A DNA stretch of 36,192 nt. It comes from Patescibacteria group bacterium (GTDB lineage: Bacteria; Patescibacteriota; Minisyncoccia; UBA6257; 2-01-FULL-56-20). How positions within the stretch are numbered: position 1 is the first letter of the stretch; every line of letters starts with the position of its first letter. Where the stretch lies: assembly GCA_028865305.1 (NCBI GenBank), contig JAGWKM010000010.1, positions 1-36,192 of the forward strand, given 5' to 3'. The position numbers and the translations under genes are program-made. Below the pieces are notes generated by a model, which worked only from the letters and a program-made list of their open reading frames with translations, did not search any database and was not told the origin of the DNA. Of the stretch, positions 1 through 1,639 are shown piece after piece.

Positions 1-81
1 CATTGTCGCGCCGTCCAGCGATGGCGCGCAATCGCTCTCAGCGGTTTGCCGGCCGTATAGGAACGGCCGGACCGTGCCAAA
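1..81. repeat. Copy 1 of an interspersed palindromic repeat
   Basis: About 80 bp matching 1303-1384 in the same orientation. Both copies contain an 8-bp stem CCGGCCGT/ACGGCCGG (here 50-71) with a different 6-nt loop (ATAGGA here, GAGTGA in the other copy), followed by a shared GACCGTGCCAAA. A second small stem around the loop CAGC is kept in both copies, with one compensatory pair change. The copy may be cut by the window edge, and I see no terminal inverted repeats here. The rest of the stretch to 183 holds no gene I can support. Confidence 0.7.
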
Positions 82-183
82 CCACTTCCGAGAGCCCCAC
101 AAAAGACCTGCTGCCGTTTTTGCCGCCGATGATGCGATTTGCGCGTGACTCAACCAGTATTCGCTGTCAAGCGAGCGTTTATT

Positions 184-1278
184 TTAGCTCCTTCGCCGGA
201 TGGAATTGACTACGGCCAGCAAAAACGAGTCCACCAACATGCTTGATCCACCGTAGGACAGGAACGGGAACGTGACGCCGACGACGGGCGTCAAGCCCGT
301 CGCGGAGCCGGCGTTCAGGAAAAACTGGACGCCTAACATGACGGCGGTCCCTAAACAGACGAACTTCTCGAAATTTTCGTCGGCAAGTACTCCGATCCTT
401 AAAATTTGGACTATCAAAAAGAAAAACGCCGCGATGACAATGAGGCCGCCGACAATCCCCCATTCTTCAACCAGCGCCGCCAAGATAAAATCCTCCGTCG
501 GCTCGGACAGGAACCCAAGCTGGGTTTGGCTCCCCTCGCCGTATCCCTTGCCCCAAAAGCCAGCGGAGCCGATCGCGATATTTGCCTGGACCGTGCTGTA
601 GTTTATGCCAAGCGCGTTCTGCTGCGGGTCCAAAAAGCCGATAAGCCGGGCACGATGGTAATCCTTCAACACGTAGGTCCAGATGAAACCGGCCGCCAAG
701 GCAAAAACCAAAACGGTTATCACGATCCGCCTGAGCGGCAAGCCGGAAAGCAAAAGGAACCCGAACCAAATGCTGAAAAAGATGACGGCGGAGCCGAGAT
801 CCGGCAGTTTTACCGAAATCGCCGTCGGGATGATGAAAAACAAAAATGAGGTCAGGATATTTTTCCACCGGGCGACGGCGAGATGCCGCCGGGCGAAATA
901 GTTGGCGTAGACGAAAATAAGCGCCACCTTCATAAATTCAACCGGCTGGATGGTAAAAGGGCCGAAAACCAGCCAGCTTCGGGTGTTGCGGATAAGGGGG
1001 CCGTGGAGCAGGGCGAGAAGCATCAGGCCGAGTGAAACGGCGTAGCCGCCCCAGATGAGCCAGCGGGTGCTGAAAATACTGCGCCAGTCAAGAAAATAAA
1101 AAATGAAAACGAGCGCAATGCCAATGCCGACCCAGACGAGCTGGAGGAGAAAAGAGTGAAAAGAGACGGCAGAGAGGACGATAAGGCCGGAGGAAACGAC
1201 AATCGCAGCCGGGATGAAAAGCGCGAGCATGAGTAAAGGATAAGGCGAGACTACATTGCGTGCAAATAGATGGCGCAA
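184..1278 (-). CDS. rodA: RodA/FtsW-family SEDS peptidoglycan glycosyltransferase
   Basis: Polytopic inner-membrane SEDS glycosyltransferase that polymerises lipid II during side-wall growth. The sequence shows about ten hydrophobic segments and SEDS hallmarks: the DLGSAVIF stretch, the NYSTVQANIAIGSAGFWGKG loop, the extracellular FLSEPTEDFILAALVEEWG motif and a C-terminal FPFLSYGGSSM. In the family the conserved Asp of the P-x-x-D-F motif is catalytic. The frame is open to 1383, but the extra 35 residues are translated repeat (the element at 1275-1424). I prefer the TTG at 1278: an AAGGAG lies 9 nt before it, and the resulting N-terminus (RHLFARNVVSPYPLLML) matches the usual RodA length before TM1. 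ATG at 1230 is the alternative. RodA is favoured over FtsW by the short tails and the lack of division-gene neighbours. Confidence 0.9.
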   Translation of the reverse strand: MRHLFARNVVSPYPLLMLALFIPAAIVVSSGLIVLSAVSFHSFLLQLVWVGIGIALVFIFYFLDWRSIFSTRWLIWGGYAVSLGLMLLALLHGPLIRNTRSWLVFGPFTIQPVEFMKVALIFVYANYFARRHLAVARWKNILTSFLFFIIPTAISVKLPDLGSAVIFFSIWFGFLLLSGLPLRRIVITVLVFALAAGFIWTYVLKDYHRARLIGFLDPQQNALGINYSTVQANIAIGSAGFWGKGYGEGSQTQLGFLSEPTEDFILAALVEEWGIVGGLIVIAAFFFLIVQILRIGVLADENFEKFVCLGTAVMLGVQFFLNAGSATGLTPVVGVTFPFLSYGGSSMLVDSFLLAVVNSIRRRS

Positions 1279-1424
1279 TGCAGGAATCTCCTTTCCGGAC
1301 ACGGCGTCGCGGCATCCAGCGATGCCAGGCGCCTGGTTACTCGGTGGTTTGCCGGCCGTGAGTGAACGGCCGGACCGTGCCAAATCGTCTCCGTTGCCGC
1401 CCGGAAAGGAGATTCCTGCATTGC
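1275..1424. mobile_element. MITE-like element with perfect 24-bp terminal inverted repeats
   Basis: Arms 1275-1298 and 1401-1424 are exact reverse complements (24 of 24). The 102-nt interior carries copy 2 of the palindromic repeat (1303-1384), including GGCATC-CAGC-GATGCC and CCGGCCGT-GAGTGA-ACGGCCGG. There is no ORF of its own, so it would be non-autonomous. On the minus strand the arm proximal to rodA contains AAGGAG followed by the TTG used as the likely rodA start, so the insertion appears to supply the ribosome-binding site. From 1425 to 1639 I see no gene. Confidence 0.75.
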
Positions 1425-1639
1425 ACCCTCACGCGACTTGCTCGCAATTCCGCTGATTTTGGAAGTTGATAAATATGGAAGCACCTCAAACGATTTTATC
1501 AGATCCACCCGTGCTTTTTATAGTGAAAAAACATCAAAGGCATTTGTGATTCCTTTTTTGAAACTGCCTGGCGGACGCGTTGCAAATCAAGCCGGAAACT
1601 CCGAAAACAGGGGTTTCAAAAAAGAAATCCGAAATGCAA

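Follow-up and report, generated by a model that had tools for sequence, protein, structure and literature searches.

A dispersed, structured repeat of Patescibacteria with site-specific inverted arms that may derive from adjacent host DNA

The repeat upstream of rodA

The analyzed window, 36,192 nucleotides of a Patescibacteria genome (contig JAGWKM010000010.1 of assembly GCA_028865305.1), carries near its beginning a rodA/ftsW-family gene that is preceded by a strongly structured repeat. Two covariance models of this repeat were built, R1 from five copies in the same genome and R2 from 85 aligned copies. The minus strand of the window copy is the forward strand of the element throughout. The features of the locus are:

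184 to 1230, minus strand: rodA/ftsW-family gene with the start codon ATG at 1230 (PF01098, E = 1.7e-80; orthologue alignment)
1283 to 1414, minus strand: structured core with inner arms (covariance-model matches: R1, 124.5 bits, E = 2.8e-30 in the search of its own genome; R2, 93.1 bits, E = 7.2e-24 in the search of the window)
1401 to 1424, minus strand: 5' arm, 24 bp perfect (1401 to 1430 at 93%), copy-specific except for the inner 9 bp or so and unlike the arms of other copies
1275 to 1298, minus strand: 3' arm, the reverse complement of the 5' arm, with a chance AAGGAG (1288 to 1293) and TTG (1276 to 1278)
1343 to 1389, minus strand: hairpin I with a 7-nt 5' bulge (GGCACGG, 1375 to 1381), from the consensus structure (A1/A3), position read from the sequence
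1303 to 1333, minus strand: hairpin II with a GCTG loop and an extrahelical A, from the fold and the consensus structure
1 to 131, minus strand: second copy, downstream of rodA and truncated by the contig end (R2, 81.7 bits over 1 to 111)
1540 to 1637, minus strand: inverted repeat of 25 nt at 88% identity just after the 237-aa gene that precedes rodA (repeat search)

The preliminary description of this locus reported a 150-bp MITE-like element with perfect 24-bp terminal inverted repeats and a palindromic core. The repeats are indeed present: the sequence and a repeat search both yield a perfect 24-bp inverted repeat with a spacing of 102 nt, which extends to 30 nt at 93% (1269 to 1298 and 1401 to 1430), and the fold of 1275 to 1424 is far beyond that of dinucleotide shuffles (z of -8.4 and -9.3 on the two strands; none of 200 shuffles as good). 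The core is structured as well but forms a three-way junction that bears two hairpins, not a single palindrome. No U tract is seen at this copy in the sequence.

The start of another contig of the assembly, C309, carries the apparent other half of the truncated copy at 1 to 131, and the right arm there matches the left arm of the window copy; given the matching arms, the two contigs may adjoin. The repeat at 1540 to 1637 scores merely 14 to 15 bits with R2 with the filters off and contains no convincing core, at most a trace; it is possibly a decayed copy or the terminator of the 237-aa gene, and was not retained as a third copy in the window, having nothing beyond this weak score.

The start of rodA

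The sequence on which the preliminary description based a translation start for rodA is as described: AAGGAG (1293 to 1288), 9 nt and TTG (1278 to 1276) follow each other on the minus strand, in frame with rodA. The claim that the element supplies the ribosome-binding site and start of rodA is contradicted by homology, which begins at ATG 1230, the position that the description itself had named as speaking against its claim. RodA has a match in 34 of the 38 genomes of the taxonomic family, with alignments that mostly begin at query residues 14 to 19, typically near residue 16 or 17, which corresponds to ATG 1230; 19 orthologues compared have their start codon in the column of this ATG or one codon before it, and many of them carry an in-frame stop 1 to 5 codons upstream. 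Because of this start column and the upstream stops, TTG 1278 is very unlikely to be the rodA start. AAGGAG occurs in the arm because the inner arm common to the subfamily (GAAAGG) happens to precede AG here; judging by these alignments, the AAGGAG-TTG arrangement is a by-product of the element sequence, and the window copy sits upstream of rodA apparently without providing its start. In the regions upstream of rodA (1231 to 1260 in the window), TATNNT-like hexamers are seen by eye 5 to 20 nt before the start codon in several orthologues; being so close, they make short or no rodA leaders likely, suggesting a leaderless mRNA.

A dispersed repeat family

The arm of the window copy and its core behave differently in database searches. 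Elsewhere in the genome there is no match to the 24-bp arm, whereas the core between the arms does have matches: blastn with the 150-bp sequence finds ten matches in this genome, namely, the copy itself, its two arms paired with each other and seven other sites, some of them partial. The same blastn query finds no match in 20 relatives. R1 detects 13 copies in the own genome at E <= 1e-3 and copies in 20 of the 38 genomes of the taxonomic family; with R2, the element is found in 135 of 244 genomes (103 of 173 genera) of the order and, in a sample of 286 genomes from the whole phylum, in 30. With 12 to 14 candidates scored per genome, the copy numbers across the order and the phylum are lower bounds. 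The densest genome seen, that of the MAG WY2.bin70 (G533), contains 29 copies in about 0.7 Mb.

An exact 23-base pattern occurs in 35 stretches from named genomes, of which 19 have Patescibacteria-type names (Liptonbacteria, Wolfebacteria, Harrisonbacteria, Kerfeldbacteria, Parcubacteria and others), 7 are named 'bacterium' and 9 carry other names. In a control on 20 pattern-matched genomes, R2 finds a match in 11 at E <= 1e-4, and none at this threshold in the other nine, which are larger (about 47 Mb); eight of these bear non-CPR names, and the ninth is an 'uncultured bacterium'.

Mean core identity is nearly the same within a genome (0.667, 210 pairs) and within a genus (0.658, 219 pairs), and pairs above 0.8 identity are more frequent within genomes (0.186 vs 0.059). 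An orthologous copy at secY persists between genera (G021 and G026), so part of the distribution is vertical and some copies are old. The element is absent from two genomes, G035 and G036, although others of the same genus carry copies. Pairs of copies in opposite orientation, about 30 to 150 nt apart, are observed at three loci (L263, 1540-1667 and 1698-1830; L222, 1350-1468 and 1501-1627; L224, 1501-1616 and 1769-1888); such pairs could mark an active form or an end-to-end insertion.

Of the mobile element originally proposed, a dispersed, structured and probably mobile repeat stands, but not a MITE with shared ends. Carriage by phages or plasmids was considered and discarded: blastn of phage and plasmid collections gives no match, nor does the exact pattern in viral contigs. 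Literature searches found no description of the element, and a scan against Rfam returned one tRNA and nothing else in the window and rRNA or tRNA alone above the gathering score at six element loci; no curated model matches the element, which excludes a known Rfam family. On these literature and Rfam searches, the family appears to be undescribed.

Structure of the core

The shared core is a three-way junction of about 95 to 130 nt, including the inner arms, with two hairpins. The conserved unpaired parts are a GGA/GA internal loop at the junction, a 7-nt bulge (GCTTGGT, or GGCACGG in part of the own-genome copies), a GCWG loop and one extrahelical A. The genus g6 mostly contains a short form of about 95 nt that lacks the upper part of hairpin I. 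Among 83 distinct rows, 91.7% of the cells are paired, vs 58.6% in shuffles and 40 to 46% in slides, and 45 of the 46 pairs have changes on both sides, in an alignment that is fitted to the model and thus favours pairing. Wobble pairs were considered as a marker of the RNA sense strand and abandoned: on the forward strand there are 71 G.T and 53 A.C pairs, both counts inflated by alignment noise, compared with 18 vs 3 in tRNA stems from the same loci. Wobble is thus rare and shows no clear strand bias, and the counts leave RNA and DNA pairing undecided.

Position at gene ends

The comparisons of individual copies started from 82 matches (81 from the R1 search of the taxonomic family and one weak match in the own genome), of which 78 were used for position, 79 for arm pairing and 79 for core identity, the rest lying near contig ends or being degenerate; gene ends were taken from a simple rule on open reading frames instead of a gene caller. 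The idea that other copies, too, would stand in front of genes does not hold, as the commonest place is directly after a stop codon, antisense. In 35 of the 78 copies, the end of an opposite-strand gene (open reading frame or tRNA) lies no more than 25 bp from the 3' edge, and in 7, that of a same-strand gene lies as close to the 5' edge; since both situations occur in 6 copies, the one-sided cases number 29 vs 1. The protein-coding genes concerned include, judging by their protein sequences, putative fusA, secY, rpoD, S1 and pilB genes; tRNAs also end at copies, and 23S ends were seen by eye in the flanks. With respect to intrinsic termination, there is the position after the stop codon in these 35 of 78 copies and an outer arm that is U-rich on average (T 0.46 and A 0.11 at positions 21 to 25 of the distal arm), although the arms may simply copy A-rich DNA by the stop codon.

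Orthologues were compared within the genus for eight genes chosen for carrying a copy. R2 detects a core right behind the gene in 12 of 50 orthologue loci, eight of these by choice, so occupancy is patchy. Where the core is missing, a plain hairpin follows the stop codon in 5 of 5 loci for gene2 and in 3 of 5 for S1, in which the G033 locus holds a degenerate element; other orthologues in the rnj and abc sets also have plain hairpins there, and most pilB, typA and gene1 orthologues without the core have no clear hairpin. The fusA terminators of G032 and G033 have a common stem, which lacks the core in G032 and encloses it in G033; this pair could also reflect loss of the core instead of gain.

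Site-specific arms that reach into host genes

The arms proved not to be the terminal repeats of the element itself: they differ between copies, and only the inner 7 to 14 nt or so is shared. Within copies, the arms pair over a median of 18 bp and up to 57 bp (79 copies, four of them with 4 bp or fewer), vs 4 bp (95th percentile, 11) for arms taken from two different copies. Among 11 copies in G038, the mean core identity is 0.81, and that of the two arms is 0.43 and 0.42, the level of shuffled arms (0.42). Nine copies of G531 resemble each other only as far as TGAAGAAGC on the left side and TTCTGAA on the right side, and beyond these points the pairing runs on for tens of base pairs.

Among the 30 copies that adjoin a gene end, the arm pairs at least 6 nt into the coding sequence in 11 and at least 12 nt in 7, and the gene ends entered in this way align with orthologues. 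The longest such pairings cover 24 nt in pilB and 46 nt (same measure, gapped) in fusA, both in G037. Since the arms pair into neighbouring coding sequence, they probably originate as reverse-complement copies of local DNA. In gene1 of G038, the last codons, which are conserved among orthologues, recur as the reverse complement beyond the core; of the two arms, as far as sequences can tell, the distal one must be the copy.

In-frame copies in a Gram-negative genome

Copies inside coding genes come from G531, a 1.7-Mb MAG named Deltaproteobacteria, in which R2 detects 12 copies in total; LpxB and a GT9 domain mark this genome as Gram-negative. The core is in frame within LpxB (PF02684), a PabB/TrpE-like protein (PF00425) and a GT4 glycosyltransferase (PF00534) at loci L245, L248 and L250, and in all three genes the sense strand is the opposite strand of the core. 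Such insertion into genes is seen only in G531 and is mostly not the rule for the copies in Patescibacteria. Compared with solved structures, the LpxB linker comprises 55 residues vs 20 in Escherichia coli, and that of the PabB/TrpE-like protein about 82 vs 51. The excess of 35 and 31 residues corresponds approximately to the core alone, which implies unchanged native flank lengths, although both flanks belong to the arms (30 bp in lpxB); this fits a flank that was overwritten by the complement of the other. The presence of the element in G531 may reflect transfer across phyla or an older origin.

Origin of the arms

We consider it fairly probable that the family is a selfish repeat in which the core disperses and the long arms are neighbouring host DNA, formed or brought to perfect pairing on site, probably through template switching. 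We infer that the core is what moves and that the outer arms belong to the host. The core would insert into a tolerant linker, or into or next to a short inverted repeat, which is often the terminator hairpin of a gene; replication template switching, primed by the short inner arms, would then overwrite one flank with the reverse complement of the other, and the same process would keep all stems perfectly paired. Because the core forms a fold of its own, the stem around it, and any terminator that this stem makes, could re-form, so that insertion would be nearly harmless. Template switching is read here from its footprints rather than from a reconstructed ancestral intermediate, and it does not account for the strong orientation bias at gene ends. 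The near-equal mean core identities within genomes and within genera, the persistence of the secY copy between genera and the few short arms also weigh against this reading, and neither a transposition event nor a target-site duplication was seen.

The strongest alternative is a conserved cis-acting RNA domain in 3' untranslated regions or terminator loops that binds a protein or controls termination under selection, with the arms as terminator stems. Copies lying directly after stop codons and rRNA or tRNA ends in one orientation, the U-rich outer part of the distal arm, the conserved unpaired nucleotides and the ordinary terminators at the same place in orthologues would all suit such a domain. 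We nevertheless regard it as unlikely, given the rarity of wobble pairs and their lack of a clear strand bias, the cores within coding genes of G531 with the opposite strand as sense, the extension of arms into coding sequence and the absence of the element from G035 and G036 within a genus that carries it.

Insertion into pre-existing hairpins alone, such as terminator loops, in the manner of stem-loop-seeking transposons and with no copying of arms, would explain the stem common to the fusA terminators with and without the core, as well as the terminator-like U tract. This explanation seems improbable in the face of arms that pair through codons of the preceding gene, as in pilB of G037, and of the 30-bp arms inside lpxB, a site unlikely to have held a perfect palindrome beforehand.

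Should local copying be the source of the arms, the family would perhaps represent a new kind of mobile repeat, a reading that we put forward tentatively and would not yet favour: only the folded core would spread, making its long flanking arms on arrival from adjacent host DNA in reverse complement, so that the arms are tailored to the site and host terminators and reading frames stay working. In this way it would have reached much of the order as well as genomes outside it, among them those of one Gram-negative lineage. More than half of the genomes of one order carry the family, with copies behind such core genes as fusA, secY, rpoD, S1, rRNA and tRNA; no other structured element of these minimal genomes would be as common, and its sites offer a natural series in which long stems seem to arise by copying. 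It also bears on compensatory stem evolution, because strong covariation, usually taken as proof of a functional RNA, may stem from a process at the DNA level.

Relation to known elements and candidate enzymes

Several known systems resemble the element in part. Rickettsia palindromic elements are described as dispersed palindromes of about 100 to 150 bp found in frame inside genes (PMC10969869). The present element is likewise small, palindromic and dispersed, with in-frame gene copies in G531; compared with that description, it differs in its conserved three-way core, site-specific arms and location mostly after stop codons in Patescibacteria. Quasipalindrome template switching makes reverse-complement copies and perfects stems (PMC8794818). 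It counts as a mutational mechanism and is not known to supply the arms of a dispersed repeat family. IS1272, of the IS1182 family, is portrayed as transposing by stem-loop replacement and targeting inverted repeats of any sequence (PMC5678879). Whereas IS1272 replaces the target stem-loop, the stems of the element enclose its core. Integron attC sites and group IIC introns are structured sites near gene ends or terminators. No attC-type boxes were noticed by eye at the arm ends, and unlike group IIC introns, the element occurs in several element-rich genomes with no reverse transcriptase.

MITEs are summarized in the same source as the Rickettsia elements as small, non-coding, multi-copy sequences with strong hairpins (PMC10969869). 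The element is also small, non-coding, strongly hairpinned and multi-copy, but the members of a MITE family have their ends in common, and these ends match those of a transposon. A classical MITE that belongs to a known transposase family, to which the size, dispersal and inverted arms would point, is hardly credible here, as the arms are not common to the copies (in G038 their identity is at the shuffled level, and sharing ends 7 to 14 nt outside the core) and the candidate enzyme domains do not track the element. Among the 38 genomes of the taxonomic family, Y1_Tnp is found in 5, DUF772, the transposase domain of IS1272, in 2 and RVT_1 in 23; a Y1, IS1182-type or reverse-transcriptase partner was rejected on this basis. 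In the domain search, RVT_1 is absent from the element-rich genomes G024, G026, G001 and G025. A short reverse transcriptase-like frame of about 217 to 255 residues, which matches only positions 55 to 204 of RVT_1, recurs beside longer reverse transcriptases (for example, in G012, G022, G031, G032, G033 and G037).
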